Source: Tribonema minus
Taxonomy: Eukaryota > Sar > Xanthophyceae > Tribonematales > Tribonemataceae
NCBI GenBank assembly: GCA_017506865.1
Contig: JAFCMP010000323.1
Location: 930,001-994,000, forward strand
Length of the DNA stretch: 64,000 bases
Direction of reading: 5' to 3'
Below the pieces are notes generated by a model that had not been told where the DNA came from, made no database searches, and saw nothing but the letters and a program-made list of their open reading frames with translations. Shown here piece by piece: positions 1 to 64,000 of this stretch. The translations under genes were made by a program, and so were the position numbers. Numbering within the stretch: position 1 is the first letter of the stretch; the number at the start of each line of letters is the position of its first letter.

Positions 1-170
1 GGCTCAGGGCAAGAGCGGCCCTCATTTCGCTTCCAAGAGTCTCGTATAGTCATGGCTGTGCGCCCGTGCAGGGTTAGCTTCACCCAGGGTTCAGGTCAGG
101 GTAAGGGTTGCTTGGTGGTCTTCCCTTTTCGCTAACCCTGCCCCTGACCTTGCCCCCCCGCACTGTTCTG

Positions 171-917
171 CGCGGCCCGTGCAAGGCGGGCTGGAGACAC
201 CAGAGGGTAGAGTGACGGCTAGGGTTAGGGTCAGGCTGACTTAAGAGCGGTTTTGATCTCGCCTCTGCGTCTTCCGCGCTGCAGGGTTACGGCCAGCGTT
301 AGGGTTTGGGCTAGGGGAACGGTGGCGTTCTCCATCGCTTCTGATGTGGGTTAGGGTTGCTTCATGGCCTTCCCTCACCGGTTCCGAACCCTAACCTAAC
401 CCTCGCACTACTCCAACTCTCGTTTGTCCCCGCGCTGCAGTCATGGCCGCGCTGCCCGTGCAAGGGGGGCTGGAGACCCCAGGAATCAGGGTTAGGGCTA
501 GGGTTAGGGTTGCCGCAATGTCATCGCCGGTTCTGTTGACCCCCTGCGCTTCATGGGCGGCTGCAGGGATTAGGTTTAGGGTTAACCCTAACCCTAAGCT
601 AGGGTTAGGGCCTGGGCTAGGCTAGGGCTGGGTTGCTGCATGGTCTTTCTTCATCGCTTTCCTACCTCGTTTTCATCGTGTTGCAGTCATGGCCGCGCTG
701 CCCGTGCTTAGGGTTAGGATTAGGTTTAGGGTTAGGGCTGAGTTGCAGTTGCTGCATGATGTCTTCTCCACCGCTTCTGATCAGGGCTAGGGTTGCCGCA
801 TGGCCTTCTCTCATCGTTTCCGAACCTTAACCTAACCCTAACCCTACGCTAACACTCATTTGTCCCCGTGTTGCAGTCATGGCCGCGCTGCCCGTACAAG
901 GGGGCTGGAGACCCCAG
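171..917 (+). repeat. Acceptor-side copies of JmjC exon 1
   Basis: Four partial copies (about 171-203, 431-480, 680-706, 862-917) of the start of the exon at 1106. Most keep the acceptor TGCAG followed by TCATGGCCGCGCTGCCCGT and run into GGGCTGGAGAC before diverging. Spacing is roughly 180-260 bases and the spacers are rich in TTAGGG units. They sit in the intron that leads into exon 1; no other gene is visible in 1-1105. Confidence 0.8.
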
Positions 918-1105
918 GTTTAGGGCTAGGATTAGGGTTGCTGCATGGTCATCATCGCAAGTGTACCTCGTGGGCCAGTTAGGTTCAGGCTCAGGGATGA
1001 GGTTTAGGGGTAGGGTTGGGGGTAGAGGTAGGCTTAGTGAGGGTTAGGGTTGCTGCATCGTCTTTCATCATCGCTCCCATGTTCTCGTTTGTCCCCGCGC
1101 TGCAG

Positions 1106-4100
1106 TCATGGCCGCGCTGCCCGTACAAGGGGGGCTGGAGACCCCGGGGGGGCCGCTCATGTGCCCCCCCACCAATGGCGGCATGGACATCATGCACTAC
1201 TTCATGGGAGACAAGGGTGAGTATGGTATGTATGTATGCACTTGACTCAACTGCACTTGGAGTCATTTGGAGTGATTACACTGGGCCCCCCTTGTACGGC
1301 CAGCAGAGCACAGTGCAGTGCGTGGCCTGCTTTTATAGCAGTGACATGTCTCCACGACTGTGGCCTGGAGCACTGCTAAATGGGAGACAAGGGTGAGCTT
1401 ACGCACATTCTCATCAATTATGCTTCAGAGTGTTGCAGAAGTGTGAGCAGCATTGTCACCTGCAATCGCCAGCTGAAATGCCAGTAGTATGAGGGGGTCA
1501 CGCCGCAGACGCGCCGGGGGGGCGGGGGGGGGGGGGGGGGGGGGGAGGTCTCAACATGAGCATGACGAGCGAAGCACTCAGATCCGTAATGCTTGCGTTT
1601 TCCAATTTGGTTAGGGACAAGCCGTGAAGGGCAGTAGCACAAAGCTCGGGCATGGTTGTGTATTTACATCCGTGGTCTGCAGGAGGCTTCAACTCGCGGT
1701 GCTAGGTACTGTCGCGTTAGATTCAATTATCGCAGTAGGACCGCAGTACTTTTTCAAAGGCCGTTCTGAGAGCCGCAATTTGCGGCCTGTCGGCAGTCTG
1801 GGCACGTGTGGAGCGCTGCCACGCGCGTACATCGCTCGTGCAGCATTCTCACATTTGAGATCAATATGCTCACTTGCTTGTCTCCAGGCCACGGTAGCGC
1901 CATGCTGTCATGGCGCACGCTTGGGCAAAAGTGTGCATTTTCACATCACCATTATTCCTTCGGTGCATCGCCGTCGCTGGTAATCATGAAAGGCGGCAAG
2001 TAGGCGATGAGAACGTCATCGACTGCAGTAACGAGCGACCAAAGCCATACTTCAAGAAGTGCATCATACCTCAACCACAAGTGCACGTTCTGTGACGGGC
2101 TGTTTGGATCCTCAGCTCGACATGTTGCTTGCCTTAGGGTTAGGGTTAGCTTACATCAGCCTCGCACGCCTCGAGCGCCAGGCCCATCCCCATCGTGGCA
2201 GCCGTCGCATAGGGTTAGGGTCAGGGTTAGCATTTCAAAGCTTAGGGTTAGGTTAGGGTTAGGCTTAGGAGCAGGGTTAGAGCGCGCCGACGCGTGCGGC
2301 GATGCAGGCGCTGGCGCGCAGTTGTGCGCAGTTTTAGGGTTAGGGTTAGCCCTAACCCTGAGGTCGTTGCTCGTCGGCCGCATCAGTTGCGCCATCCTGA
2401 CCGAAACCCTATTTGCCGTAACACTAATCGCTGTACGCAAGCGCATCTCCGTTGTCCTCGTCACGCGTGCACCCATGCTGCAGAGCTTGTCGCCGGCGCT
2501 GGCGTGCAGTCTTAGGGTCAGGGTTAGCCCTAACCTTAACGTTGCTGTTCGCCGGTCGCGTCAGTGGCGCCACCGTGCTAACCCTAACTCTAAGCCTAAT
2601 CCTAACCCTGACCCTAACCTAGCGCTAGCTCACTGGACGTAAACGCATCTTCGTTGTCGTCGTCGTCCTCGCGCGTGCCGCCAAACGCTCTCTTCCGATG
2701 CAACTGTGCCACGCTAGCCTATCAGCTACAGAAGTGCCCTGCACCAGTCACGCCGTCCGCCGCTTAGGGTTCGTGTTAGGATTACAGGTAGGGTTAGGGT
2801 TAGGGTCACACTGGACATTAAAATTTCATAGTGCCCTGCATTAGTCACGCCATCCGTCGCTGAGGGTTAGGGTAACGCTCAGGTTGAGGGTTGGGATTAC
2901 GCTGGACTCAAAATCTCATCAGCATCGCTGCTCGTGCAGCTGACGCGCCCTCTCAACACAATCCTTTTCAACTCCTAACCCTTACCCCCCCCCCCCCCCA
3001 CCCTGATGACCTCCTTGCAGGCACGGGCGCGCCGTTCCATGTGCACTCCGACGCCATCAACCTCATGCTCACGGGCTCCAAGAAGTGAGTGCGCTGCTGC
3101 TGAACGCTGCGCTGCTGCCGCGCGCTGCGCGGCTGCTGGCGCTGCCGCCGAGCGGTGCTGCTCATTGCTGCCGCGTCGCGCGTGCGCTGCGCTGCTGCTG
3201 AATGCTGCGCTGCTGCCGCGCGCGCTGCTGCCGAGAGCGCTGCTGCCGAGCGCTGCCGCGGCGCGCCGCGTCACGCCTGCGCAGTGGTCTGCAGCCGCGT
3301 TCGTTTCCGTGTAAGCACGGTTCTGTCCTGGTGGCGATGGATTGCCATCTTTAGCACCCTGTTGCGATGCGCTTGGCTGGGCTCACAGGCTCAGGGTCAG
3401 GGTTAGACTTCACCCTAACCAATCTTGTCCCTGTCGGAGCGCGCTGCGTTGTGCATCGCAGTGCAGCCGCCCGCCTCTTGAGCGGCATTACGTTCTAACG
3501 CAGGTCCGGGTTAGGATTTGAGTTAGGTTTAACTGTTTAGGGTGAAGTTGATCAGCATCACTGACCAAGTGCGAAGGCTCACGGGACGGGAGACTTAGGG
3601 TTAGGGTTAGGTTAGGGCATGAGAGCCCGCTGTTACGCGTGATCAGAATGCAGCAGAGGGAGTCTATGTCCACGTTGAAAGACTGCGGCTGCTGCCGCTG
3701 CCACGGCCACTTGCTTTGACGATCGTGGCGAACACCAGATGTGGTGAGCATCACAACCCATGTGGATCAGTGGTAACTGCTCTTGCTTGTCCATAGCATT
3801 CGCTCGCCCAGGAGCTGTCTGGCAGATTGTGGTTTAGGGGTAGGTAAATCTACCGAAAGGGTTGGGTGACCCTACCCCTAGGGTTAGGTGACCTTACCCC
3901 TATGGTCAGGTAACCGTACCGCTAGGGTTAGGTGACCCTGCCCCTACTACGCGTCTTACTCGCTGCGCGCATGCGCTTTTCATCGTCCATGACAAGTGCC
4001 TCCTTGCCTGCTGCCGCTGCCCGTCGCTGCTGCTGCCGCTGCTGCTCCTCAAAAACATGTCGCGCCGTCAGGTGGTGGGTGCTGCCGCCGCGCCAGGCGA

Positions 4101-6498
4101 CGTTCAGCCGCATGCACATCAAGGAGTGGGCGGCTAAGGTACGGCGCGCCAATTGAAGTTGCAGCTTTGAGGTTGTAGCCATACATAACGTATGTGACAT
4201 ATGCCGTTAAACCGCTTGTGTTGTGCGCCCCCCTGGCTGCGCATGTTGAAGTTGTACCTGTACAATTATACGGTATGCCCTCTTTGCATTGTGAAGCTTG
4301 CGGTACGCACAGAGCACCCAGCTGCGCATTTTGAAGTTGAAGTTGCTTCTTGTCTCCTCGCGGTCACAACTCAGCCCCTTGTGCGCTGCCTCCCCTCACA
4401 CGCCTGCTGCCCAATTGCGCGATGACGTTGCAAAATCATGCGGTAGCGGTGCTGAGCTTGCGCATATAGTTCCGCTCGTCCCGCGATACGTGAGAAGATT
4501 AAACCATCCCGTAAATGTGCCTCACATGTGACGGTGCTGGGTTCAGCCTCTTTCCGGCAGCGGTGCTGTACGTGCGTGTAAGCAGTGCTACAGGAGAGTT
4601 TCCGCTAGCTCTGTGAGAACCAACGAAGCGTCTCACATGTGCTCCTCTTTCTGTGTGCACCCCGCCCTATTGGGGTTCTGCACCCCGTGGCAGCTGCGCA
4701 GCTCTCGCGGGTCCATAGCCCCCTCGCCTCCCCCTGCGCATGTGGGGTCCGGTATGCGTCTCCATTGCACTTGCAGTTGTGCACTGCAAGTGGTGACGCT
4801 CTACATGCCTTATCAGCAGACCTTGACAGCACGCTGCATCTGCTTTTTGCGCGTGCGCCCCTTGGAACACAGACGGGCCGTCTGGAGAGCAGGGACGCCC
4901 CTATGGAGTGCCTGCAGAACGCTGGCGACCTCGCCTACGTGCCTTTCGACTGGGGCCACGCAGCAATCAACGAGGTCAGTGACAGCCATAACCGCAGTAT
5001 GTGCCGGTACTTGGACAAACCTTATCGTTGTCAGATATTACTGCATGTCGACGTCTTGTTACTGGAAAGTCTGCAGAACGCTGGCGACCTCGCCTACGTG
5101 CCTTTCGACTGGGGCCACGCGGCCATTAACGAGGTACACACTTGTCGTTATTCTTAGCAATGTCATCGCTAGATATCGCTGTATACCGACATCTTGATGC
5201 TACTACTAGTAGAGTGCCTGCAGAACGCTGGGGACCTCGCCTGCGTGCCTTTTGACTGGGGCCACGCGGCGGTCAACGAGGTCAGCGGCAGCCGCAACGC
5301 AGTACTTCGAAGTACATGATATCCTTGTGCTGACATTGTTGAGTGTTGACATATAAAGTAAATAGTACAGTGCCTACACAACGCCGGCGACCTCGCGTAC
5401 GTGCCTTTTGACTGGGGCCACGCGGCGATTAACAAGGTCAGCGGTAGCCAAAATGCAGTACATGGTGGTACTTGTTGTCAACATTATCAACGGCAGAAAG
5501 TACTGTATTTAGATGTCTTGATGCTAGAGTGCATGCAAAACGCTGGGGACCTCGCCCATGTGCCTTTCGACTGGGGCCTTGCGGCAATCAACGAGGTACA
5601 CTCTGGTCATTACCGTTACCTTTGTCGTCATTAGGCATCACTGTATTTCGACGTGTCGATACAAGAGTGCCTGCAGAACGCTGGGGTCCTTGTCTACGTG
5701 CCTTTCGACTGGGGCCATGTGGCGATCAATGAGGTCAGCGGCAAGCTTAATGCAGTACACGCTAGTCATAATTGTTGTTACCAGTACCACCATTGGGCAT
5801 CACTGTACTTTGGTGCATCAATGCTAGAGTGTCTGCAGAATGCTGGAGCCCTCGAAGTGCTTAGACTTAAATCAGGGTTACGGTTACTGTCCGATTGGTG
5901 CCATGTGGTGAATAACGAGGTCAGCAGCAAGCATGATGCAGTACATGGTCATACTTGAAAGACTTGAACATTACTAGCATTACTAGTACCTCGTAGTATC
6001 ACGATCAGAAACAAATATCACCAGAACAAGTTTTCATATTGTGCCGAGCGCGCGATGCGGCAGTGTGTGCACACTTCAACGTATAGAAGTATCTTGAGCG
6101 ATTGCAACTGTCTCAATACCCTTTTCCTTCTCTTTGAGGCAGCAATCAAATAAACGAACACCAGGTACTTTCTATTAGTTCTCGCTCAGGGCGCGAAAAA
6201 GCCCAGATGATGGTCTAACTTGATGCTGCTGTACGGAATCTGCATGTCGTGTGACTTCTGAAAGTGTCTCAACGACAACCACTCAAACGCCGCCGCCGCC
6301 AAATGGCATCTCGGGATCCTCCCCTGCGTCCTCCTCCATGTACCTCTGCGGACTTTCTTACAAGCCAGCACCTGTGCCGACTGAAAAAGGTTTTCCCCCG
6401 TCGGTGATTCATCGCAGGCGGATGACACATTTGGCTACACCATGGAGCTGACAAACAGGCGCGACACGTTCATGGCCATCATGGGGCGTGCGTGCTGA
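1106..6498 (+). CDS. JmjC-domain 2-oxoglutarate/Fe(II) oxygenase, 3' part (5 exons)
   Basis: Exons: 1106-1216, 3021-3084, 4072-4138, 4873-4974, 6418-6498 (stop). Joined they give 140 residues with every phase closing. Exon 2 carries the PFHVHSD segment, which supplies the HxD iron ligands, and the NLMLTGSKKW stretch typical of JmjC cores. Exon 3 reads WVLPPRQATF. Exon 4 has AGDLAYVPFDWGHAAIN, with the distal iron-binding His in WGH. Exon 5 ends the protein with MAIMGRAC. Family knowledge: such enzymes hydroxylate or demethylate protein side chains using 2-oxoglutarate and oxygen; the substrate here is unknown. The first exon enters in phase 1, so the N-terminus lies left of the window. Copies of exon 1's 5' edge lie upstream of it (171-917) and copies of exon 4 lie downstream of it (5065-5919). 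Confidence 0.85.
1217..3020. other. JmjC intron 1, telomere-unit rich
   Basis: A second copy of the exon-1 end (GGAGACAAGG followed by GTGAG) occurs at about 1386-1396. The rest holds a 27-base G run near 1516-1544, scattered TTAGGG/CCCTAA units (2120-2640, 2760-2890), and a C run just before the exon-2 acceptor at 3020, which acts as its pyrimidine tract. Open frames here have no domain signature and look like chance. Confidence 0.6.
5065..5919 (+). repeat. Donor-side tandem copies of JmjC exon 4 (6 copies)
   Basis: Copies at 5065-5133, 5212-5280, 5368-5436, 5527-5595, 5665-5733 and 5827-5919 follow the real exon end (4906-4974) at a period of 138-162 bases. Each ends in the exon's AAC(G/A)AG and a GT donor (GTCAG or GTACAC). 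All are free of stops in the exon frame. The nearest copy differs little, the fourth replaces the iron-binding His of WGH with Leu, and the last is disrupted by a telomere-like insertion. Confidence 0.9.
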
Positions 6499-6539
6499 CG
6501 TGCCACGTGACTTCAAACTTGAAGTTACCCTGGGTTCCT

Positions 6540-12774: not shown

Positions 12775-12811
<37 letters not shown>

Positions 12812-16394: not shown

Positions 16395-16465
16395 GCATCG
16401 CGCAACGCGTCAGGCGCGCGGCGCTCACTACTGGTGCTTCGCCCTGAGGTCGTGGTACGCCTTCG
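16395..16465 (-). repeat. Copy of the FAD monooxygenase terminal exon end, beyond the stop
   Basis: On the minus strand this reads (K)AYHDLRAKHQ and a TAG stop, matching the end of the last exon at 16615 (TAYAELRAKHQ, TAG) plus some 3' flank, about 180 bases further on. It shows that the exon-edge copying also acts at the outer end of a terminal exon where no splice donor exists. Confidence 0.75.
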
Positions 16466-16614: not shown

Positions 16615-19600
16615 CTACTGGTGCTTCGCCCGCAGCTCGGCGTACGCCGTCAGCCACGGGCGCGCGTCGAAGACGTTCGCCGCGCGCAGCTTGCGCTGCA
16701 TGACGCCTACCGGCAGCAAGCGCAGCACCGCGTCGCGCAGCGGCGGCGCCAGTTGGCCTATGCGCATCTGCTTGTAGGACTCGGCGTGGATGCGCGCTGT
16801 GTGCGCGCGGCGCGCGCGCTCGTACCTGCACGCATGCGTACATACATACCCACCCGCAGGCGCCGCGCGATCATTAGTCAAATGAAATCATTCATGATTC
16901 GTGGTGGAGAGAACCAGGTGCTTTGGCCTGTCGGGGTGAGGGGCCACGAGGTCACTGTGTTGCGCGTCGCAGTGCAGAGAACATCCATCTATCAGACCAT
17001 TTGAAGCACAGCCTATACAAATAAGGCATACTCTAGGTACACCGTGTGAGCGGCGCGTAGGGATAGAAGGCCTCCGTGTGACTGTCAGGCGGGCCCCACT
17101 TGCGCCGTAGCTGCACCATAAGAGCCAGAACATGCAAATACCAACAATCAGGTCAAGCATAGCCTACTTGTGTCTAAGGTATACTCTAGGATACACGGCG
17201 TGAGCGGTGCTTGGTGGCGACTTACTGATAGAAAGCCTCCACGTGGCCGTTAACTGGTCCCCAAAGCGCCGCAGCAGCACCATAAGAGCCAGAACATGAA
17301 AAAACTAACAATCAGGCCACTTGAAGCATAGCCAATACACCAAACGTATGCTCAGAATACACCATGCGGCGCGTAGTGGCAACTTACTGGTAGAGGGCCT
17401 CGACGTGCAGTCAGGCTGGTCCCAGTAGCGCCGCAGCACAAATAATATTGTTGAATATTAGAACCCAACATCAAAACCCAACAATCAGGCCAGTTGAAAT
17501 ATAGCCTGTACTTACCAAGTACACTCTAGAATACACAGTGTGAGCGGCGCATGATGGTAAGTTACTGGTAGAAGGCCTCCACGTGACCGTTGGGCAGGTC
17601 CCAGTAGCGCCGCAGCGGCACCATATATAACAGTACACATAAAGAATCCAATAATCAAGCCACTTTAAGTACAGCCATACCTCTCTACGGCACATTCTGA
17701 ATACATCAGTTGAGCAATGCTTGGTGGTGACTCACTGGTAGAAAGCCTCCACGTGGCCGTCAGGCTGGTCCCAGTAACGGCGCAGCAGCGCCATAAGAAA
17801 ACAGAACATGGAGCATCCAATAATCAGGCCAGTTGAAGTACTATGTATATGTAGTCATACACCCAAAGTATGCCCTAAATACACCATGTAAGCGGCGCAT
17901 AATGGTGACTTACTGGTAAAAAGCCTCCACGTGGCCGTCGGGCTGGTCCCAGTAGCGCCGCAGCAGCACCGCCAGCACGAACGCGTCCTCTATGGCCATG
18001 CACGCGCCCTGACCATTGTTGGGCGTCACGGCGTGGCACGCGTCTGCGCAAGTAGGGTTAGGTTTAGAGTTAGGGTAAGGGCTCACGTGACGCGCAGGCA
18101 AGGGGTGTGTCATCACTAGAGCTAGCTATTTTTCTCCTTTGCTGCTGTTGTTCAGTTTCTAATCTGCATGAATCAAAACAGTAGTGTACTCTTGAAGTGT
18201 ACTGCAGGGGTTTGATCTTGGCGTCGCGGCGCAGATGGGAGCGCGGCGCAGATGGGAGCTAGATCACATGCCTGCGCATAGTTAGGGTCAGGATAGGGGT
18301 TACAACACACACGCAGCACGCATGCTGGTGTGTGTGTGGGGGGGGGGCATTGCTGTTGGCGTCAGCAGTCGCAGCGGCGCGCATGGGGTCACGGCGCGAA
18401 GCATGACCGCAGAATGTACGAGAGCGGCATTTTCACGGCGGTTGTATTGCAGCGGAGTGAAGAGCTCGTTGCTCAGGGTTAGAGTTGGGGTTGGGATTAC
18501 TGAGCCGTGTGACCACCTCCGATGGACAGCATGGAACTTCAACTGTTTCCGCTGATGTGCCTAGCAAAGGCAGCATTTCATTGAAGGTGGCGATGCAGTT
18601 CCGCAGCACCTTTGTTGCAGTGAGCGACGAGCTCGTTGCTTAGGGTTAGGGTTAGAATTACGGTTACTGAGCCGTGTGGGCGGCACCTCCGATGGACAGC
18701 ACGAAACCTCAACTGTTTCCGCTGATGTGTCTAGCAAAGGCAGCAGGTCACATCGAAGATGTAGATGCAATTTTGAAGCGGTTTTGTTGCAGTGAAGTGA
18801 AGAGCTTGCAACTCATGGTTAGGGTCAAGGTTAGGGTTACTGAGCCGTGTGGCGCGCACCTCCAATGAGCGTCACCCTGCTGGTGCTCCAGCGCGGCAGT
18901 GGCGCCCTGTCCTGGATGCTGCAGAGAGGGAGGCACGCGCGCGCCGGCACACACAGGCGAGAGAAAGAAGCCGAGCTGAGAAACGTGAGCATGAGACATG
19001 CTTTCAGCAGTTATGAGAGGGTTCAGGGACTGAGTCGCACTGAATCGACGGCTCGAGTTGAAGTGCACACTTGAAGAGCACACTCGCAGTGCACGCGCTA
19101 CGGCATCACACAGCGCGCAGTGCGCTGCCTGCGACTCAGTACTGCTCGCATCACACAAAACACAGGCAGCTGGTCTGGCAGAGCAACCCGCAACATCAAC
19201 ATACACTTGGAATCACGCCGATGGGCTGATATCTTAAGAATACTTCCAGGTTTTGGTTTGCAAGCACCTGGTCAAAAATCTACAGGGGGGACAGGCCTCC
19301 GAACTTGTACTTTTTGCAAAGAGTCCACAAAAAAGGAAGCAGCACGTGCATCGCAACTTGACTGGTACCATGAGTAAGCGTAGGCACGTAGCCGCAGCAG
19401 AGTACTAGCTGGTAGGCCAGCATAGAACGGATGCCCTTTACAACCACCAGCGCTTGGCCGCACTAGAGCAGAAAGTCCACACAGCACGAGGGACAGATGG
19501 CGCAGCAGAAAGAGACCTACTGGACGAGCAAGCGGAGACCATGCATGCTCTGCAGGCTCAGGCTGTGCAAGCAAACGGCGCCACTGCTCCCACACTGGAA

Positions 19601-22600
19601 AAAGCTGCGATGGCGAGTGGCAGACAACGCTCCGCGCTAGTGCGGGGCGGTGTGCCCCACATTTTTTCATCGCTCCGTCAAGGAGGCTTCCAATGGGAAG
19701 ACCATAAGAATGGATCGGCGCGCGTTGTAACACCGCTAAAAAGCTGCAGCTGCCGTTTTGCATCCAAAAGTGATACCAGGCACACAAACACAAGCGTATG
19801 AATGGGAACTCCAACACATTACTGACCTTAACCCTAACCCATTGCGCTGCTGTACCTGTGCTTGGATACGCCGCGCGTTGATTCATTCTTGACGCATTGC
19901 GATGATGATCGCTTCAATGTCGTGAGCAACTGCAGCACCTGTGCTTGTGTATGCCAGAACCGCAACTCTTGCTCATAGTTTCATTCTTAACCTATCGCGG
20001 TCACGATCGTTGCAATGTCATTAGCCAACTGCAGTACCTGTGCCTGGATATGCCGCACATTGATTCATCCATTCAATTCAAAACATATCGCGATCGTGAT
20101 GGCTTGACCTATCAATACCGTGATCGCTGCAATGTCAGTAGCCAACTGCAAGTATCTGTGCTTATGTATTCCTTGCGGGTTGTGCGCCGCGAACGTGCGC
20201 AGCAACATTTCATCACCGTCTGTGAAAATTTTCAACGATGGAGCATTCATCCCGCCCAGTCAACGGCTTGAGTCGCAGCGCACGCACCGCTGAAATCCAA
20301 CAGCGCGCCAGCGCACACACTTGAAAGCATATGCTCTGCACAGTACCTGTGCTTGTATATGCCTTGCGGGTTGTGCGCCGCGAATGTGCGCAGCGGCTCC
20401 GGCCACGTTTCGTGCGGCGACGCGTCACCCGTCGACACCATCTGCGCCACGGCAACAGCGTTAACAGTTCGATATAAAATAAGCTATTCACGCCATGCGC
20501 GCGCGCGCATGGCGTTAGCACATGATGAAGTCGTGGATAGGAAGGACTGCCAATGAAGACGAGAAGTTTGCTTGAATATATGTGGTGGCGCGTCGCCCGT
20601 CGACACCATCTGCACCACGACCAAGGCGACAATAATACAACGCGCGCGCGCAGGCATGGCGTGACAGCGCAGCGCTCAGCACATGTTCAAGTTGAGTTTA
20701 CCATCTGCGCCGCAGCAACAGCGTTTACGAATATTTACGGCACGCGCGCGCACGCATGGCGTGACAGTGCACGCGGTCAGCGCACGCTGAGGGTGCGTCT
20801 AGGCAGGTCTGCCAAGGAAGTCAAGGAATTCGCTCCTGCATGTCTTTGGAACAATGCATTTGGCAGATCTGCGCGAATCTGCACGGCGACGAAAAGGGTG
20901 GGTACAGCACGCGCGCGCATGGCGTGACAGCGCAGCGCGCAGCACATGTTCAAGGTGAGGCTGAGTCATGCGGAGTGCTGACACTGACTGTTCCAGACAT
21001 GGTGATTGCGCGCCTGGTTCTCGACGATCACTTTCAGCAATGCATGCACTGTCCGCAACTCACGTGTCGGCTGGAGTTGCTTGAGTGTCATGTTTGGCGC
21101 TCTGTGAGCTCTAACCCTTCTAAGTGAACCCTGACCCTGACCCTAACCCTGACCCTAATCCTAAAGCAGCGCTCAGACCGCCAGCACTTACGACGTCCCC
21201 TCAGCAACGCGCGTTATGTTCGCACGCAGGCAACGCGAGTGACTGCGCGCAGGCAGAGGCAAAGGTTACAGAGAGAGCAGTTACCTGTCTGACAAAACAG
21301 TTCCCCAAGGTGCAGTCACCTGTTTGACGCACCAGCCCTAACCCTAACCCGAACCCTAACCCCAAGAGATCATGCAGTGCTGCACGCAGTGGATGCACCA
21401 TCCACAAAGCTCCACAGAGAGACTGTTACCTGTTTGACGAACCAGTAGCCCGTGGTGCGAGTGGCGTCAATGTGCCAACCCTAACCCTAACCTCAACCCT
21501 AACTTCAAAGCAGCGCTCCGACCGCCAGCACTTCCGTCGTCCCTCAGCAACGCATTCTATGTTCACACGCAGGCAACGCGAGTGACCCCGCGCAGGCAGG
21601 GCAGCGGTTACGTTTGTGACCCGCTGGACTCGCCTGACAGGTGAAGTTGGTGTTTTACAAGTGAACTTAGAGTTCATATGAAGTTCAACAACATCAACAT
21701 CGAGGTTCTTGTTCAAAAGGAGTTTGCAGTCATGGAGTTGAAGATTATTCTTGGACTATCATACTCGTTGGAGAGTGCAGTTACCTGCTTGACGAACCAG
21801 TACCCCGTGGTGCGCGTGGCGTCAATGTAGCCCCACGAGTAGCGGATGCCATCGCCATAGACGATGGACATACTGGATGCAAAGGCAGTTACAGACGGGC
21901 ATGTAGGTAAAGATTCACAGAGAGGGTGGGTAAATTCACAGAGAGGGCAGGTCAGGAGTCACAGATAGGGTAGGTATGCTGTTGCCGTAGACGGCCATCT
22001 TCAGAGATGCTGCACGCGGCCGCAATGACATACGGGTATGTAGGTAAGGAATCACAGAGAGGGCAGGTAAAAATCACAGAGAGGGTAGGTCTGAAGTCAC
22101 GGAGACGGTAGGTATGCTGTTGCCGTTAACGATGGAGATGCTGCACGCGGCTGCTATGACAGACGGGCATGTAGGTAAGGAATCACAGAGAGCATATGTA
22201 GATATGCTGTGGCCGTAGACGATGGACATGCTGCACGCAGCCGCAACGACATACGGGTATGCAGTTGGCGGAAGGCATTTATTTACTTTGACGGCTTACC
22301 ACACCTTGTCACCTAGAGCTCTACAATCTTTTGATTCTACTTTTCCCATGTAGGGTATGAATCACAGCGAGGGTAGTAGGTATGCTGTTGCCGTAGACTA
22401 TGGACATGCTGCACGCGGCCGCAATGACAGACGCGTATGTAGGTAAGGATTCACAGGGAGGGTAGATAGAAATCACAGAGAGGGTAGGTCAGGAATCAGT
22501 GATTCCGAATCACAGAGAGGGTAGGAATGCCGTCGCCATAGACTATGGACATGCTTAGGGTTGGCACATTGCGTATATTTGGATTTTGCATACCCGCATA

Positions 22601-23522: not shown

Positions 23523-23553
<31 letters not shown>

Positions 23554-31107: not shown

Positions 31108-31164
31108 CTGCACAGTGAAGTTTGAGTTGAAGATTGGAACAGCGTGGACGGTGTCCTTGTGAGT

Positions 31165-31330
31165 GATCGCGACGCTGTCGGGCGCGCCCGGCGCGGGCGG
31201 CGCGGCGGCCTTCACGTGAAGTTCGATTTGAAGGCTGGAACATATGTGTTTCAGGGGTTCTTGAAAAAGTTTTTGGGGTCACGGCGCCGTCGGGTGCACC
31301 CCGCATGCGGCTGCGCGGCGGCCTGCACGT
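31165..31330 (-). repeat. Acceptor-side copies of FAD exon 1
   Basis: Two copies upstream of the exon at 31107. The nearer (31160-31215) reads AAPPAPGAPDSVAI where the exon reads AAPRAPNAPNSVVI. The farther (31275-31330) is degenerate. They abut the U8 copies from the other side, with no room that looks like a separate first exon. Confidence 0.75.
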
Positions 31331-32325: not shown

Positions 32326-32442
32326 CGCGGCTTTCTGGCGACTTTAACACTGCAAATAAGCAGACGTATCCTCCCAACCACGAAAAGAACTGCATGCACG
32401 GTAGTGATACTTCAACTTCAGCTTCAACAATTGTGTGCTCAC

Positions 32443-49917: not shown

Positions 49918-52900
49918 TCACGACCACGCGACGTAGCCCCACGTGGTGACGCCGTACGTCGCGAACGTCGCCTGCGCGCTAGCGTACAGGCCCGCGCGCG
50001 CGACGCTCGGCACGACCCTGGCCGCGATGCCCGCGTACGACGTCCACGCGACGCCGCCGCTCGTCGCCCAGTCGTTGGCCGTCTCGGCGCCGGTCGTGTA
50101 GAGCTGCGGCGACAGGTAGTCGACGCTCGCGCTGGCGAAGACGGCGCTCATGACGGCGGCGGCGTCGGGGAAGCCGTACGGCGCGGAGTGCGAGATGGTG
50201 ACGAGGACCTTGAGGCCTGCGGCCTTGGCGTTGGCGAAGGACGCGGCGAACGCGGGCGCGAGGCCCGTGACGCCCTCCTCGATGTCGTAGCAGATGCCTG
50301 CGCGGCGGTGACAGACAACACGTGAACCGGCGGCTGCATGATTGAGAAACTGATGGAGGCTTGAGGTGCCCCTGACCCTTTCCTCAACATCGCAGCAGCG
50401 ATGGATGAGAAGCGGCGTCGGCACAGTGAACTGATGGACGCTTGAGGTGCTTCCACCAACAAGGAAAGCTCTCCTCAGTGTCGTAGCAGATGCCTGCGCC
50501 ATATGTAGCGATGGATGATCAGAAGCAGCGGCGGCGCGGTGAGTGCTGATTGGATTGGCAATAATGATACGAGATGGCGGCACGGTGAGCAGTTGCTGGA
50601 TGCTTGAGGTGCTCCTGAAATGGCAACGGATGAGACGCGTTGGCAAAGGACACGGCGAACGCGCGCGCGAGCTCCGTGACGCCCTCCTCGATGTCGTAGC
50701 AGATGCCTGCACGACAGCAGGAGCGGCGGCATGGTCAGGGGCTTAAAGAGGCTCGAGGTTTTAGGGTTTCCTCAATGTCGTGCCAGATGCCTGCGCGGCG
50801 GCGACGGGTGAGCAGCACCGGCTGCACGGCGAGCAACTGGTGGAGGCTTGAGGTGCTCCTGAAGGTGCTTTCCTTGACGTCATAGTACAGGCAAGCACCA
50901 TGGGACGCATGCCACCATGTGACCCATGCCACAATGTGACGCATGCCACGCAGAACCCAAGTACAAGATCAGCAACGCACCCACGCAATTGGCGGACGTC
51001 AAGGCGTTGAAGCTGGCGTCGAGCTTTATGACGAGCGCCTCTGTCCACGCGCCGGCGCCTTGTGAACGAGCCTTGCAGGCAATCGCCAACGCTTTGTCAC
51101 GCCCTATGCGAGAGAAACACGGGCATTTCTACTTGTAAATAAGTCAAAAAACGCACCCACGTAGCCGGCGTTCTTCACGACGGCCAAGTTCGCGTCGAGC
51201 TTCGTGATGAGCGCTGCCGTCCATGCGCCGCTGCCGTTGCCGCCGCCGACGTCCAGGTACTTCGCGCCGCCGAGCTTGCTGAACGTGTTGGTGGCATCGC
51301 TCAGCGCGAGGGTCACGTCCGCCCAGCCGCCAAAGGCGACGCCGAGCGTTGTGCCAGCGGGCGCCGTCCTGGCGGCGTCCCACGTTTGGTGGTAGTAGCC
51401 GTTGACTGCGCGCCGTGGGAGGGGGGCGGGGAGGGAGGGAAGTGATTTTTTAAATACTATTTCGCAAAAGTTAAACAACGGCAGGGAGTGAGCACAGGCA
51501 GCGCTCGGCAAATATGGAGCCTTGTCTGGTGGTAGTAGCCGTTGACTGCGCGCGCGCGGGGGGGGGGGGGGAGCACAGGGAGGGGGGATGAGCACCGGAA
51601 GGGGGGGGCGGGGGCGACGCCAAGCGTTGTGCCCCCAGGTGCCGTCCTGGCGCTGAGCCACGTTTCGTGGTAGTAGCCGTTGACTGCGCCAGTGAAGGGG
51701 GGGGGGGGGGGGGGGGGATGAGCACAGGGAGGGGAGGGAGGGGGGATGAGCAGGGAGGGGGGGGGGGGGGGAGGACGAGCACAGGCAGTGCTCGGCACGT
51801 TGCATTGAGCCACGTCTGGCGGCGGTAACTGTTGACTGGGCGGCGCGGGGGGGGGGGGGGGGGGGGGGAGGCGGGGGCGGGGCGGAAAGGATGAGCACAC
51901 ACTCACAAAGCTAATGAAAGCGAATCAACAGATCGTAGAGCTCTAGGCGACAAGGTGTGCTTGGCCGTCAAATAGAATGCCTATATGATATGAAGCTGGG
52001 GCACAGACGTACCTGTAGTGCCGCCGGCGGTGGTGGGCCTGGGCGTAGTGGGCGCCGGCACCGGCGTCGGACCGGGAGTTGGGGTGGGCCCCGAGGTGTA
52101 ACAGTTGTTGTTGGGGGTGTACGCGGGCTGGCACCTGCCGCATGCAGCGATAAGACAAAAAAAAATATGTGAAAGTCAGTGCCAATCGCGGGGCACTGCG
52201 TCTTGAGGGGGTACTGTGCCCCCCCCCCCCCTCTGCACTCACAGGAAGAGGGGGATTTGAAGAGGTCGCACGGCACGTAACCAGCGCCCTGTCGTGCTTG
52301 CGTGCGGTAAGCAAGGTTCGGTGTCGCAGGCGTATGCGGGCTGGCATCAGTCGCAGGCAGCGATAAGACGGTCGGCAAAGCCATGGAATTCAGTACAAAT
52401 CGGCGGGCCCCTGCTGCTTCTTGAGTTCATTGCGTCCACTCCCCCCGCCCCCCCCCCCCCCGCCCCCCCGCCGCATTCGCAGGAAGAGTGGGACATTTAG
52501 TCGCCGAAAGTCACGTGAAAACTGCACTACAGCGTGTAATCCGGTGTGACCGTTGCGCGCGCGTAGGCCCGGCGCCACGGCCCAAAAAGCTAATGTGGCC
52601 GCAGTACCCCTTCCGCATGTACGCATGGCCGTAATGTACACACCTACCTACCCCACATTTCATTTTGAGTTGTGCGTCAACAGGCAACAGTTAGGGCATG
52701 TTTAACCCCACATCTGCCCACTGCCCCTGCCGCTTACCCTGGGTCCTGACCCTATGTAGTTTCGCGCTGTAGCGTGCGGCACTTGTGGGGGTTACAATGT
52801 CCCTGATATGCTGCTAACCCCAGTTGTAATTCTTGCTGCAGCTGCCTCTGATGCCTCACTGCCGCGCATATTGGTGTGCGCTGCGCCGCCGCAGCCCTAT

Positions 52901-55900
52901 GAGGAAACGTACGTGTCACGTTAGGGTTTGGTTGACCCCACCAGGCTCACTACTTCAACTTGACCTGACCCAACCCCCACCCTAACCCTTGCTGCGGCTG
53001 CCACTGGCGTCTGTCTCACCCGGAGCCGCACCACGCGTCGTTGGTGTACGGCACGCTGCCGCTGTAACCGTTCTGCAGCTAATCCTGAACCTAACCCTCG
53101 CCCTAACCCCATACGATAGATTCCCTACTCAAGTCACAACCTCGAGTTGACCTCAGCTAACCCTGACCCTGACCATTGCTGCCACAGTGTGTCTCACCCG
53201 CCGCAGCACCACGAGTCATTGGTGTGCGCCGTCCCGCCGCAGTAGCCGTACTGCTATAACCTGACCCTACCCCTAGGGCGTTGCGTTCCCTCCTCAAGTC
53301 ATTGGTTCTAACCCTAACCCTAAGCATTAGGTTCGGTACTCAGGTTTTCATAACTTCAAATCTTACCCGGCGCCGCACCACGTGTCGTTGGTGCGCGGCA
53401 CGCCAACGCAGTAGCCGTACTGCAGATAACATGACCCCAAGCGTCGGTTCCGTACCCCAGTCTCAACGTGAACTTGATCTGAGCTAACCTCAACTCTTAC
53501 TCTTGCTGCGTGTGTCTCGCCCGGCGCCGCACCACAGGACGTCGGTGTGCAGAGCGCCACCACAGTAGCCGTAATGCGGACAACCTAACCGTGACCCCAT
53601 CTCTAACGCCACCCGAAGCATCAGGTTCCGCTTTCAGGTCACAACTTCAAGATCTCAGGTCACAACTTCAAGTTATCACCCGGCGCCGCACCACGCGTCG
53701 TTGGTGTGCGGCACGCCACCGCAGTAGCTGTACTGCGTCACAGCGAACCCTAACGCTAAGCATTAGGTTCGGTACTCAGGTTTTCACAACTTCAAGTTCT
53801 CACCCGACGCCGCACCACGCGTCGTTGGTGTGCGCCGCGCCGCCCCGCCGCAGTACCAGTACTGCGGATGACCTAGCCGTAATCTTGACCTAACCCTAAC
53901 CCTAAGCATCAGAGCATTAAATTCCATACTCAGGCCAGCAACTTCAAGTCTCACCCGGCGCCGCACCACGGGTCGTCGGTGTTGCAGAGCGCCACCGCAG
54001 TAGCCGTAACGCGGACACCCTAAACGCAAACCCCATCTCTAACGCTACTCTAAGCATCAGGTTCCGCTTTCAGGTCACAACTTCAAGATCTCAGGTCAAA
54101 ACTTCAAGTTCTCACCCGGCGCCGCACCACGTGTCGCTGGTGTGCGGCACGCCGCCGCACCAGCCGTACTGCGCAACTTCTAACCCTAACCCTAAGCGAT
54201 AGGTTCCTTACTCAGGTATGTATCCACAACTTCAAGTTCTCACCCGGCGCCGCACCACGCGTCGTTGGTGTGCGGCACGCCGCCGCAGTAGCCGTACTGC
54301 GAGCAGCACTCGGTCGCCCCGCACACGCCGGCGCACGCAATCCCCGTAGACGTCGTAGGCTTGGCGGTCGGCTTTGCGGTCGGCTTGGCTGCGACGCGCA
54401 AAAACACGGCAGCGCTCAGCATTTGCAGGGTGTGACGGGGCACGAGTAAACAGGAGAAGGCACTAATAGCGGCGGTGCGCAGCAGCGGCGGCGCGCGTTA
54501 CGCCGTAAACTGCGGCGGCCGGCGCGCTGTGTAGACCAGGGACTAAGACGGGCGGGTGCGGCAGGCGGTTCAGGATATACTTCGAGCCTGCTTTTTGAAA
54601 TGATCAAATGACACAGCCACGGTCGGCCCCGTTCGTAAATCGGTTCAGCGGCGGGCTTCACGGTCGCGCCGGCCGCTGCCGGCGGCTTGGCTGCGACGCG
54701 CAAAACAATGGCAGCGCCGAGCATCTGCAGCGTGTGACGTGCCGCGAGCGTTCCCGTACCCAGCTCAGCCGGCGGCTTGGCTGCGACGCGCGGAAGACAC
54801 GGCAGTGCTCAGCGGCAGCGGCGCGCGTGACGCGGCAGGCGCGCTGTGTAAGCACGAGTTCTTAAACTTGGGTGGGCGGTTGCGGCGGACGGTGGAGCCC
54901 ATGAGCGTCAAGCAGGCAAGTAGTTGCAAGTAACTGCACGACGGCAGATTGCGGTTTGCGCCGTCGTCGCTGTCGGCACGGCGGTGCGCGAACACGGGTG
55001 CCGCGGGCAGCTCAGCTGCGACGAGTACTGCTGTGACGCGCATGAGGGCACCGAGCATGGGCCGCCGCCGCCGCCGCTGCGCACAGACACGTCAGGCGCG
55101 TCGCCCAGTAGTGCACGTGACTCAATGTATCGACGCCGTCAGCGAAACGGCATGTCAGATAGTAGGTATGTGGGTACTGAGACGGCGCGGCGGGTCGGGT
55201 ACTCTCATGCACCGAGAGGCATGCCCTTCTCAGGTATTCCGTGTACCGAGACACGGCGCTTCGGGCATTGAGCCGCGAGCACCGCGCGCGTGCACGTTTG
55301 CTGCGCCTGGCCCGGCTGCGGCGTCGCGGCGCGGCGCGAGCGCTGCTGCGGCAGCGCACCCGCCGCGCTTGACGCACGCCAGCACGGCAGCGCTGAGCTG
55401 CGGAACCAGCGCAGTGCATGACAGAATTTGTCTGGCCTCCGCTGCCGCTCGATGCGCAGCAGGACCGATAGTTGTTGGTGTGGTGCATGGGCTCGTAGCG
55501 GCAGCTCCCGCGGAGGTGCGCACAAGAGCTCAGGGGCGTTTCCACTGTTGCCAGAGAGACAAGGCGGTTTGAGAGACTGTGCATCCCCACCGCAATACGG
55601 GACAGCCGGACCTGATGAGGAAGCTGGAGTGGGTGGTCAGCGACTCTGGGTCTAAGTCTGACCTGTCACCCTAACCCTAAAGCTAACCCTAACCCTGAAC
55701 CTAACCCTAAGTCCGTGAGTCTGAGTTTGAGTCTGACCTGTCGGCTTAGCGGTGGCTCCCCCGGTGGTGGGCTTGAGCGTAGGCTTCGCGGTGATGGGCT
55801 TCAGGGTGGGCTTGGCTGTGAGGGGGGGGGCGGGACCGGGGGAGGGGGGGAGAGGGGGGGGGGGGCGGAACGGGTGCGCAACGCTCAGCTACGTCGCGCA

Positions 55901-60096: not shown

Positions 60097-63000
60097 ATGG
60101 CGCGTGCGTTCCTGTCTCTCGACGAGGGCCTGAAAACGGCATTCATTGCGGCTCAGGAGGACTCCACTGTGCGGTGGCTGAGGGCTGGAGTGCAGGAAGA
60201 GAAGGCGATAGTGCTCGTGTCGCAGGGGAGTGCCTCACCCAGCGTGCAACAGGACTTTGACGGGCTGCAGGATGCCTTGGACTCGGATTCCCCTGCCATA
60301 TTGCTGTTCAGGGAAGCTGCAGAGGTGAGTGTGCAATCTGGTGCTGGTACACTGCGCCCGTGATCTGGCACAGGAGTGCTTGTGACTCGTTGTATGCTTT
60401 TTCAAAGAGGCTTGACGTCAGGTGCACACAAGAGTCGATGGTTCTTTCAATTCTGAGCTTGAGCAGTCATGATTGTTTGCGACACAAGAGGGTTATGTTC
60501 TATAACGCTCTGAACAAATCTCAACTCAACAGCTGCTGGCTGTACTGAATCCACCGCTGAAGCGCTTCATTCGCTACTCAAGTACTGATGGCATATACCC
60601 AGGGAATAATCAGATTGCTTATTCTTTCACGTAATATTGGCAAGTGTGAGCTCGTGCACCGTCGTCGTGTGCGCTGGGTGGTGACAGCCGCTGCGTGCTC
60701 GCTGCTCGGCGACAGCCGCTGTCTTATAGGTAATCGGGCTCATTGATGCGCGTCTCTGCGTGAAACGACGACCAATTGACCTCAGCATTGCAAGTTGCAA
60801 CGCACCGGGTCCCACATGTTGAAGTTGAGGTTCGGGTGCTGCTGAGCACTTGACGTGCCTGTTCATGCAGGTTTTGCGCCCTGGGTCTCAACGATCACTT
60901 CTCGCAACGCATGCACTAGCTGCGAGTCCTGTGTCTCCTGTGATCTCTCTTGGTTGCCCATCTCTAGCATGGTGGTGAGCTATACGTGCACTCCCAGGCT
61001 TCCTTGTGCAAGGCGCTCCCTCGTCATTGCCATCTACGCAGTAGCACGGCGCCCGACGCTCGCATCAAGGCACTGCGCGTCATGCAACGCCAGCTTTCCA
61101 AACACCAGGCGTACGTCAACAACTCTGTCAAACCAGTTTTACTGTACTGGCCCTCTTCTGCAGCAGCTCTGACAAAATGCATTTTTATGAATAGAAATGC
61201 ATAATTTTTCTATACGCCCATCTATAAATCAGCACTATGATCATTAGAGGTACAGCAATTCCAGTCCTTGCCCCGGTAGGTCAACTCATGCGTGCTGCCG
61301 CCCCTCCCAATCGTGCTCAGGGCGCGGGATCGGGCAAGTGGCTGCTCATAGCGTGGGTGCCAGACGTGAGCAAGACGCGGCTGAAGATGCTGTACAGCAG
61401 CTCCAAGGTGAGGCGCGCGTGTGGCAGTGCTCAGCATTCCAGAACTAAGAGTTGCACCTGACCTTAGTAGATGCAGGTGCAATGAGCTCAGGTCACATAC
61501 TATAGGGGCCCTGTGACAGGGCACACCAGTATGGTGAGCACAGCCCCACAACACAAGTATTCAGATAGCTATAGGCAGCAGGCGTGTGTTACCGCGCAAG
61601 TCAGCAACGCGAAGCATTCTGGACATTGATTGTGTGCCTAAAGCTGTACCTGGCCTTTGTTGAAGCAGGTGCAATCAGCTCAGGTCACATACTGCAGGGG
61701 GCCTGTGACAGGGCACTTCAGTATGGTGTACACAGTCCCACAACATGACTTCAGTATGGTGTACACAGTCCTACAACATGAGAACTCTAGTAGCTATTGG
61801 CAGCAGGCGTGTGTCACTGACCGCCCGATGACAGCTTGCACTCAGCACAAGAACTTGTGTCTGCAGCATAGTAGCGGCGGCGTGCGCTGTTGCCTTACGG
61901 AGCTCTGCGCAGCAGCGGGCCACGTGATGAGCTGGCGATGATGAGCGGCTGTGAGGTGAGGTAGGGCAGCGCTCAGCGGCGTTGCTGAGCAGCTGATGGC
62001 GTAGAGTTTGGGTTAGAGTTAGGGTTAGGGTTAGGGTTAGGGTTAGGGTTAGACGGTGGCAGGTGAAGCAGACGAACTCGCGTGTGGTGCAGTGGCGCGC
62101 TGCGCAACAGCTGAGGTGCAACGAGCTGGTGGTGATGAGCAGCTGGGAGCTATGTAGGCATGCCCGCGCAGCGCCAGCTCAACGGCCCCCTCCGTCCCCT
62201 CCGCCTGTAACGTGACTTGCTGACAGACACCGTTCCTGCGCCAACTGGCGGCATGCGCTCCATATCAGAAGTTTGTCCTCTGACTCCTACCTCTACGTCC
62301 TCGCCTCGCCAGTGTTGTTGCTGCTTGCGCACGGCCATGCGCACGCAAACATATTCCAACTTCAACTGGCCCGCAACTTGTGCTTTTTCTGTGGCCTCAG
62401 GCGGACGTGAAGGAGGGCCTCGGGCTGGGGTACTTTGGGGGGGAGTACTACGCCAGCGAGCCCTCGGAGGCAAGTGCTAATGATGGCTCGTTTTGATTCT
62501 ACTTTTTTGAGGTTGTCATTCATATTTGAACTGTGTTTGACTGCACAGCACGTTGCCAGTACTTCATGCACGCCAGTGAGCCATCAGAGGCAAGTGCTAG
62601 TGACGGCGACGTTTCGAGTTTTCTTGTTTGAGGGGGTCATGCATTTTTGAGCTATGATTGACCGACCAGCACAATGCTGAGCGCTGCGGCAAGGTATCTG
62701 GGGCAGCGCTCCACAGAGAGTCTGCAATGTTTGGGTGGGGGCGTGTACGAAGATGGGCAGCACGGATCTGCTGAGCCCTTTGTGTTGGCTTGAGTAATTG
62801 AGCCTTGACTTGGGATGAGGGCTAGCCTGTGCAATTTTAGGGTTAGGGTTAGGGTTAGGGTTAGGTCACATGCGCCAGTCACAGCGGCGCGCTGGCCTAG
62901 CGCCAGTGGTAGAACGATGCACCTTTCGTTCCGTGGGGGGCACAGGGTTAGGGTTAGGGTTAGGGTTACGGTTAGGGTTACACCAGCACCTTCCAGAACG

Positions 63001-63618
63001 TGCCAGAACTTGAGGGAAAAAACCCTAGAACTGCCCTACCTAGGTATGCACTAAGCATTGGACCATGGACCATGTCATATTCTGACACACTAGCTTAGGG
63101 TCAGGATGAGGGTTAGAAGTGGACTGAGGGCTAAAGGGGGCTGGGGTTTCTTGCTGAGGGTGGACGCACCTAATGAGCGCTGGTAAGATGTTGTCAAGCG
63201 ATTGAGCTTTGCTGCTGCTACTGCTTCTGTAGGTTTCAAACTGCTGAACGGCGCTGCTGCTGCCATAGTGTTGAGCGCTGCTGCTGCTGCCACTGTGTCA
63301 CACTGCTGAGTGCTGGCGTTGCCTTGAAATGATGAGTGCTGCTGCTGCTTCCACAACACTGACTGCCGCTGCTGATGCTGCTGCCACCGCCGCTACTGCA
63401 CGCCTCGCCGCACCGCAACAGCTGAGCTACGCTGCGCTGGTCGCCTGTGCAATAATGAGCGCTGCTGCAGCTGCTGCCACAAATACTGAGCGCTGCTGCT
63501 GATGCTGCTGCCCTCCGCGCCTCCCGCACCGCAACAGCTGAGCTACGCTGCGCTGCTCGCCTCGCGAGACACCACGCACGACGGCGACTTGCTGACAGAA
63601 CGAGAGGTCATCCAAAAG
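60097..63618 (+). CDS. Twinfilin (ADF-H domain actin regulator), 5' part
   Basis: Four exons in the window: 60097-60324, 61321-61407, 62401-62469, 63538-63618, all in phase 0, 155 codons; the gene runs on beyond the right edge. The protein starts MARAFLSLDEGLKTAFIAA and has SDSPAILLFR, then KWLLIAWVPDVSKTRLKMLY, the actin-binding core of an ADF-homology domain, followed by ADVKEGLGLGYFGGEYYA and LSYAALLASRDTTHDGDLLT with EREVIQK, the end of the first ADF-H domain and the inter-domain linker of twinfilins. Twinfilins bind actin monomers and filament barbed ends. Exon 3 ends at a GC donor (GAG then GCAAGT). Start codon context (GAGCTATGGCG) is acceptable. A single-domain relative (coactosin or cofilin) is less likely given the linker. 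Confidence 0.85.
61930..63000 (+). repeat. Telomere-unit runs and a donor-side copy in twinfilin introns
   Basis: TTAGGG runs at 62015-62052, 62838-62863 and 62945-62980. At 62557-62600 a copy of the exon-3 end reads TACTTCATGCACGCCAGTGA, GCCATCAGAG and then GCAAGT, keeping the GC donor. Confidence 0.8.
63395..63445 (+). repeat. Acceptor-side copy of twinfilin exon 4
   Basis: GCACCGCAACAGCTGAGCTACGC-type text with CTGCGCTGGTCGCC repeats the acceptor and first 25 bases of the exon at 63538. A further local tandem repeat with GTGCCGCACTGGTTCTTATT lies at 63697 and 63791. Confidence 0.8.
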
Positions 63619-64000
63619 GTACGTTGAATTTCGGTTGAAGTGCACGCACACATTCGCCTTGAATACCCTTGTGTAGACGTTGCAATTGAGTCCGAGGTGC
63701 CGCACTGGTTCTTATTAGTAGACATCAATTGTCGGAAACAGTGGCCAATGTGAAATAACCTCCTGTGCACATGTGTCAGATGCGTTCAGGTGCCGCACTG
63801 GTTCTTATTAGTAGCCACCAATCATCGGAAATAGTGGCTGATGCCAGAGTGGAAGGAGCAACCCACCCGAAGACAAGCTCGTGGCGAACTCAGTAGTTGG
63901 TTGGACGGCAGTGGCTTACCGAGGGGGCGAGCAGGAGCTGGTTTAGGGTTAGAATTAGGTGTAGGTGTAGGGTTGGGGTTAGGTCGTCACCAAGGGGACG

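Follow-up and report, generated by a model that had tools for sequence, protein, structure and literature searches.

Introns of Tribonema minus contain graded copies of the adjoining exon borders and probably lengthen by recurrent border-spanning tandem duplication

How does an intron come to hold repeated pieces of the exon beside it? This question is raised by a stretch of 64,000 nucleotides from Tribonema minus (Xanthophyceae), positions 930001-994000 of the 1,003,705-base contig JAFCMP010000323.1 (assembly GCA_017506865.1; genome of 158 Mb in 554 contigs), which is called the window in the following. An initial annotation of this window reported partial copies of exon borders in the adjacent introns. 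Our analysis shows that the pattern is real and is present beyond the window in half of the genes sampled. The copies are ordered by similarity along the intron, and we consider it probable that introns lengthen here by recurrent tandem duplication of segments spanning an exon-intron border, followed by near-neutral decay of the copies.

Twenty-nine exon borders of the window were tested. They belong to a gene on the plus strand, assigned by the match of its spliced peptide to Pfam JmjC_2 (E 3.2e-5), to an FAD monooxygenase gene on the minus strand with hand-joined exons (best PDB match 1.2e-17), and to a minus-strand gene region that we take to be hevein/GH18-like; an ankyrin-like gene and the FAD exons E5-E7 and E11 were left out of this test. 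Each exon was compared with its adjacent intron by blastn (E<=1e-3), and a copy was counted if it lay at most 10 bases from the border. At 16 of the 29 borders the adjacent intron holds at least one such copy, giving 49 copies with 1 to 8 per border. The largest arrays belong to the hevein-like exon (eight copies near the border), JmjC exon 4 (six), and the donors of the FAD exons E1, E2, and E3 (five each). The FAD introns E8-E9 and E9-E10 carry copies on both the donor and the acceptor side, and both GT and GC donors occur among the copies, as had been stated initially. The initial annotation counted at least 20 borders in four genes and 1 to 9 copies per border. Copies at borders stand, their number being 16 borders in three genes at our threshold, and nine copies are reached in all by the hevein-like array. 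A single match of the border test, at the JmjC exon 1 donor, was on the opposite strand, and among the 153 local repeat pairs (up to 3 kb apart) in a self-comparison of the window, 4 were inverted.

The exon borders of the window had been set by eye after the repeats were seen, so that this sample is not blind and some acceptors are possibly 1-3 bases off. Hence, a fairer test was sought in other genes. A first set comprised 61 introns of six HSP70 genes and of CCT1, 3, 7, and 8 on other contigs, located by Pfam searches, with borders derived from spliced alignment to PDB proteins. These resulted from 64 predicted introns (38 HSP70, 26 CCT) after two doubtful introns of the HSP70 gene C548 had been merged and spurious introns of 42 and 51 bases had been dropped from CCT8 and CCT3b. 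The HSP70 genes were picked without prior hints of copies. The CCT part, six of ten located regions picked by coverage, is not blind, as C5 (CCT3) and C135 (CCT8) had earlier shown overlapping profile matches. With the doubtful ones counted, 55 of the 64 predicted introns are in phase 0, and in 52 cases the preceding exon ends in AG. A phase-0 bias and AG exon ends are typical of proto-splice sites.

Comparison of the exons of this first set with their adjacent introns (E<=1e-3) gave 47 matches, all 47 on the same strand and 41 of them ending at most 3 bases from the border. At E<=1e-2 and a distance of up to 10 bases, 23 of 122 border sides and 17 of 61 introns carry copies. The cross-family control, in which exons were compared with the introns of the other family, was negative in all 2105 pairs. 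At the looser threshold of E<=0.1, 2 of 57 adjacent matches were on the opposite strand and 16 control matches appeared. The HSP70 genes alone contributed 14 matches, all same-strand, 12 of which lie at most 3 bases from the border, and 7 of 37 introns with copies. A second set consisted of four further HSP70 genes, CCT2, and CCT4 with 19 introns, selected from 32 predicted ones by splice-site appearance before repeats were tested; one gene (C21) was dropped as a whole. Here, 5 matches in 4 of the 19 introns were obtained, all five same-strand and at the border, with 2 matches among 528 control pairs. In kind and position, the border copies described initially were confirmed in the window and in both sets. 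The number of copies in the conserved genes is 47 or 50 depending on the analysis, because the E-values refer to different search sizes.

Border copies are unevenly distributed between genes. All 6 introns of CCT8 have them, as do 4 of 7 in the HSP70 gene C190, 3 of 5 each in CCT3 and CCT4, 2 of 7 in C544, 1 of 4 in C48, 1 of 8 in C41, and 1 of 5 in CCT7. No border copies were found in CCT1 (8 introns), the two C522 genes (10), C548 (5), CCT2 (3), C101 (3), C112 (2), and C39 (2). The window is richer in copies, with 16 of 29 non-blind borders against 27 of 160 sides in the conserved genes. Introns with copies at both ends also occur in the first set, namely C190 intron 4, CCT3b intron 1, and CCT8 introns 1 and 5. 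In this set the median intron length is 815 bases with copies and 488 without, a difference that is weak on its own since longer introns also give more room for copies. In another CCT gene (G000:C51:21979-22639), Pfam matches upstream of an exon resemble acceptor-edge copies (profile positions 51-147, 52-88, and 53-81).

The geometry of the units was derived from 31 arrays (25 from conserved genes and 6 from the window) with 79 copies. Successive copies are spaced by a median of 152 bases (interquartile range 120-178, range 75-710); the units of 90-240 bases proposed initially fit the bulk of these values, the full range being wider. The exon part of the copies has a median of 52 bases (5-95% range 31-73, maximum 135), thus whole exons are not copied. 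Nor are the units wholly exonic: the nearest ones have a median length of 148 bases with 48 exonic and 93 intronic bases. In 16 of 39 compared pairs head-to-tail homology extends over the full period (alignment to period at least 0.97) with exon and intron parts aligned together. Five of these pairs have ratios of 0.97-1.07, and eleven alignments are longer since they continue across several units (66-78% identity). To carry exon sequence into the next intron, a contiguous tandem duplication must span the border, hence copies that touch the border are expected.

Local repeats were further surveyed in 60 HSP70 and CCT introns, CCT3a being excluded. Detectable same-strand local repeats cover 20.5% of the intron bases, so that the initial statement that copies make up much of the long introns holds only partly. 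Of 32 repeat families, 22 include the border, or 23 if one in C544 intron 4, with its second segment in the exon, is reassigned, and border families hold 6450 of the 7904 family-assigned bases. The nine internal families, some of which touch a border or come within 15 bases of one, have shorter periods (median 92 versus 148 bases, P 0.003), which is expected because longer segments span borders more often. Along the introns repeat coverage is flat (0.14-0.30 per 20-base bin) without a peak at the border; inside the exon it is 0.03-0.05 by 60-100 bases and rises to about 0.1 at 140-160 bases. Under random placement the expected share of border families ranges from 0.36 to 0.74 (P 4e-5 to 0.67), depending on the values assumed for intron length and for how much longer copies at borders remain visible (visibility factor). 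Most families do lie at borders, but with this expected share the anchoring proposed initially, if taken as a mechanism aimed at borders, is not established; a preference of duplications for borders beyond geometric chance is possible.

The order of the copies within an array points to growth at the border. In 12 of 13 arrays of at least three copies, identity to the real exon decreases with increasing distance from the border (mean rho -0.65, permutation P 0.0003), and in 13 of 16 arrays the nearest copy is closer to the exon in sequence than the mean of the others (P 0.034). Pairs of copies (116 in total) have an identity of 0.82 over their exon part and of 0.635 over their intron part, the baseline for unrelated sequence being 0.564. 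The step is enlarged by the selection of copies by exon similarity. It is located just inside the intron, past the first six bases, which themselves have an identity of 0.864. Such a step at the border is expected if copies are drawn repeatedly from a constrained exon with its splice site, whereas copying from copies only would produce no border effect. The JmjC exon 1 acceptor and FAD E3 donor borders were one base off in the junction listing and the copy-to-copy identities; corrected borders were used for the gradient and for the counts of splice dinucleotides.

Paralogous genes provide information on timing. The HSP70 gene C190 and the two C522 HSP70 genes have five intron positions in common. 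At these positions the C522 introns are 198-531 bases long and lack copies at E<=1e-2, whereas the C190 introns measure 786-1726 bases and contain copies in four of five cases. Hence, existing introns were enlarged and not newly created. Donor copies in C190 match their own exon better than that of C522 (95 versus 88%, 93 versus 86%, and 100 versus 89%) and therefore arose after the split of the paralogues. The two C522 genes (L019 and L020) are near-identical, inverted, and about 24 kb apart. The one intron pair that was viewed is diverged at its start and nearly identical at its end, a pattern suggestive of gene conversion.

These observations are best accommodated by the following process, which we regard as probable. 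Segments of roughly 100-200 bases spanning a splice border would be duplicated in tandem, and recurrently. On the donor side, the last ~50 exon bases, the GT, and ~95 intron bases would be copied. If the spliceosome keeps the outer, 5'-most site, the mRNA would be unchanged and the second exon end would become part of the intron; with the outer splice site still in use, the duplication would be tolerated and the intron would lengthen. Acceptor-side duplications would be the mirror image with the 3'-most AG staying in use. Since the exon edge remains at the border it could duplicate again and push older copies inward, resulting in a conveyor of decaying exon-end copies. An RNA step would not be needed, and the duplications may arise via ordinary break or replication repair. 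The idea of the initial annotation that introns grow by repeated local duplication at borders is supported by the same-strand copies spanning the border, the full-period homology, and the position of the youngest copies at the border.

Several results weigh against this process or limit its reach. Copies are present in only 8 of the 16 genes sampled in the two sets. Less than one period is aligned in the other 23 of the 39 pairs. In 27 of 31 nearest copies the exon part is shorter than the intron part (P 3e-5), which random placement alone does not predict. Between copies, the intron parts have diverged further than would follow from a simple neutral model; here, however, exon similarity was the criterion by which copies had been chosen. 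Moreover, not all copies are clearly younger than the split of the paralogues: those at the acceptor of C190 exon 6 are 86, 88, and 83% identical to their own exon and 88, 92.5, and 82% to that of C522. Finally, the changes specific to copies, determined for 16 arrays, are 63 synonymous, 101 non-synonymous, and no stops, compared to 47.4, 112.7, and 3.9 expected without constraint (synonymous excess P 0.0035, lack of stops P 0.017), and a further class, of changes common to several copies or ambiguous, comprises 29 synonymous and 21 non-synonymous changes and 1 stop. A mild synonymous excess can stem from older copies that retain the ancestral state after the exon has changed. Room is nevertheless left for weak constraint on the copies.

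The same excess and the lack of stops would be in line with copies that function as mutually exclusive or alternative exon ends or as decoy splice sites under selection, a use that the initial annotation had considered and that our data do not uphold. The splice dinucleotides are intact in 64 of 75 determinable copies (GT 43 of 53, AG 21 of 22), and copies resemble one another as much in the first six bases of the intron as in the exon part. Yet neighboring exon dinucleotides taken as control are retained about equally (543 of 703, Fisher P 0.14), AG alone being retained more often than the control. JmjC exon 4 has an open frame into its first copy, and the first five offsets in its array, indeed all six (159, 306, 462, 621, 759, and 921), are multiples of 3. 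Across all 79 copies, however, offsets modulo 3 are distributed 23/30/26 without frame preference, so that internal use of a copy would usually break the frame and in-frame extension was rejected. Strong purifying selection on the copies was rejected as well. Its apparent signal in the raw counts (90 synonymous changes versus 54.6 expected, 0 stops versus 4.4) largely reflects constrained masters combined with neutral copies, and with this combination the polarised counts agree, as 9 synonymous changes and 1 non-synonymous change are specific to the masters against the 63 and 101 in the copies. Also, the fall in identity with distance is unlike what equally maintained exons would display. We therefore regard functional copies as very unlikely and read the copies, from sequence comparison, as probable debris decaying near-neutrally. 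Still far less credible is an origin of the units from introners or transposons. Introners are families of dispersed elements that occur in several algae and dinoflagellates; in unicellular algae and their relatives they form introns from repeats, a feature in common with the arrays described here. However, every array carries exon sequence of its own gene, and the units of three arrays, including JmjC exon 4 and FAD E3, had no match in the 158 Mb genome outside their own location in a search that scores best candidates only. These three arrays are thus private to one gene each, unlike introners, and a dispersed element was rejected. Tandem repeats are hard to assemble, and an assembly artefact could mimic arrays. 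As the copies diverge from their master by 0-24%, form graded series of similarity, and are found again in unlinked genes, a simple artefact appears unlikely in the extreme.

Two further explanations were considered. In one of them a single initial border-spanning duplication per array was followed by amplification within the intron by unequal exchange or slippage, as in a minisatellite. In several arrays many copies have one exon-side junction in common (68-71 bases in JmjC exon 4; 64 bases in 4 of 5 copies of FAD E1), as this would predict, while differing junctions in other arrays (25 to 135 bases at CCT3b exon 0; 48 to 112 bases at CCT8 exon 4) do not fit, and the identity gradient towards the exon together with the step at the border points to repeated copying from the exon. 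Later amplification of this kind seems improbable to us. In the other, duplication is not merely tolerated at exon borders, it is targeted to them by a process linked to splicing, transcription, or chromatin. The share of border families speaks for this at an intron length of 491 bases and a visibility factor of 1.5 (P 0.007), as do the tight exon reach, which mostly stays below the intron reach, and the clustering of spacings around 150 bases. The same share gives P 0.05 at 491 bases with a factor of 2 and P 0.08 to 0.67 with a pre-growth intron length of 300 bases, and the flat repeat coverage across the intron speaks against targeting as well. The short exon reach is most simply attributed to selection, if longer exon copies would be recognised as exons and were disfavored, which could yield the same asymmetry; a bolder idea is a border-centred process. 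Targeting thus remains a minority view among our interpretations. With equal reserve, borders may be seen as preferred sites of repeating duplication with an exon reach of ~50 bases and a period of ~150 bases, so that introns would be lengthened from their ends and carry a readable age record of this growth; the process is possibly linked to transcripts bound by the spliceosome or to DNA intermediates the size of a nucleosome.

Recurrent border-spanning duplication resembles several known processes. Internal gene duplication reportedly yields duplicated introns or exons (Gao and Lynch in 2009). Local tandem duplication within genes is common to both, but those cases, as summarised, copy entire introns with flanking exon, whereas only edges are copied here, inside one intron. 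In a potato RdRp gene, a single tandem duplication spanning an acceptor made a new intron (Ma, Lan and Niu 2016, PMC4974935). There too the duplicate spans a splice border with contiguous exon and intron sequence; in contrast, existing introns lengthen in T. minus, events recur at one border, and donors are involved too. In the AGGT model (Hellsten et al. 2011, as outlined in PMC4974935), duplication of an exonic segment containing AGGT creates a new intron. Tandem duplication near splice sites and an unchanged protein are shared features, the difference being that the unit in our study spans an existing exon-intron border. With regard to the cause, repair of breaks with complementary 3' overhangs gives small tandem duplications (Schimmel et al. 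2021, PMC8355091). Such repair is a plausible and candidate source of the units, although the abstract of that paper draws no link to splice borders. A search of open-access literature by titles and abstracts with our chosen wording found no description of arrays of border copies across genes. As far as these searches show, the pervasive ordered pattern is new, the elementary event being already known.

In the window, the arrays are arranged as follows. On the plus strand, the first placed exon of the JmjC gene (1106..1216, identified by Pfam JmjC_2 and blastn) is copied at both borders. Four blastn-detected copies of its 5' edge precede it on the acceptor side (170-207, 441-483, 687-705, and 877-918), and one short donor-side copy of its 3' edge lies at 1370..1392. 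Exons 2 (3021..3085), 3 (4072..4138), and 5 (6419..6489) have no border copy at E<=1e-3. Exon 4 (4873..4974), which is without an acceptor-side copy, is the master of a donor array of six copies of its 3' edge at 5063..5854, 92 to 86% identical to it, five of which reach the border.

Further arrays lie in or upstream of the FAD monooxygenase gene on the minus strand. Exons E1 (34166..34249) and E2 (32443..32540) were placed by reading frame upstream of the FAD exons and are putative members of this gene; each has five donor-side copies in blastn (33205..34026 and 31507..32326, respectively). Exon E3 (30897..31111) encodes the nucleotide-binding N-terminus (Pfam FAD_binding_3, E 5.9e-6; PDB monooxygenases). 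It is accompanied by one acceptor-side copy at 31170..31211, its acceptor position maybe being 2-3 bases off, and by five donor-side copies at 30017..30835, all detected by blastn. No border copy at E<=1e-3 was found for E4 (29116..29277), whose borders are uncertain. E8 (23688..23775) lies inside the PDB-matched stretch and has one donor-side copy at 23580..23640. E9 (21785..21872), also PDB-matched, has two acceptor-side copies at E<=1e-3 (22204..22552) within a larger local repeat set at 21838-23441 and a donor-side copy at 21430..21473. The PDB-matched E10 (20347..20441) has one copy on each side, at 20581..20609 (acceptor) and 20156..20203 (donor). Four donor-side copies at 17226..17792 belong to E12 (17914..18046; Pfam FAD_binding_3, E 6.8e-5, and PDB match). 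The donor-side copies of E8, E9, and E12 and both copies of E10 were detected by blastn.

Also on the minus strand, nine donor-side copies at 52871..54173, eight of them within 10 bases of the border, repeat the edge of an exon at 54244..54390 that was defined by reading frame and is presumably hevein-like, judging from its sequence motif. The last exon (49918..50298) and the preceding exon (51160..51406) of a gene that we assume from its sequence to be GH18-like were likewise defined by reading frame. They have three acceptor-side copies at 50468..50791 and two at 51524..51684, respectively. All these copies result from blastn.

Other repeats were found in the window as well. Telomere-like TTAGGG repeats are dotted over it (e.g. 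at 2134, 33188, and 34396), with 45 exact 12-mers on both strands of the 64 kb compared to 9 in 100.6 kb of other gene loci. As the window lies near a contig end, this scatter may reflect a subtelomeric location. A short dispersed element, its copies alike in their flanks and with the core GATCGTAGAGCTCTAG, is present at 34561, 37859, and 51931 on the plus strand and at 38161 on the minus strand; no exact match to it was found in the 100.6 kb of other gene loci. Short motifs based on CTTCAA/TTGAAG recur at 41501-42074 and elsewhere, raw exact counts of CTTCAA being 63 and 51 per strand. A 366-codon open frame at 45974-47074 on the minus strand contains an internal 84-base tandem repeat and presumably corresponds to ankyrin repeats, which it resembles in motif. 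In the genome, 92 matches to chlorophyll-binding (LHC-family) proteins were counted, whose nearest single-domain PDB relatives are labelled ACPI/CAC, as cryptophyte proteins are; other proteins of the red lineage rank behind these, in keeping with an alga that is probably of this lineage.

The growth of introns without transposons is a long-standing question. In T. minus, each duplication event would leave a copy of an exon end whose distance from the border ranks it in age. The process would thus be measurable genome-wide in terms of its rate per border, the length of its units, and the exon reach that is tolerated. If the protein-based gene models are right, the cells choose the outer of similar splice sites located 75 to several hundred bases apart, and the border arrays would represent a natural experiment in splice-site choice.

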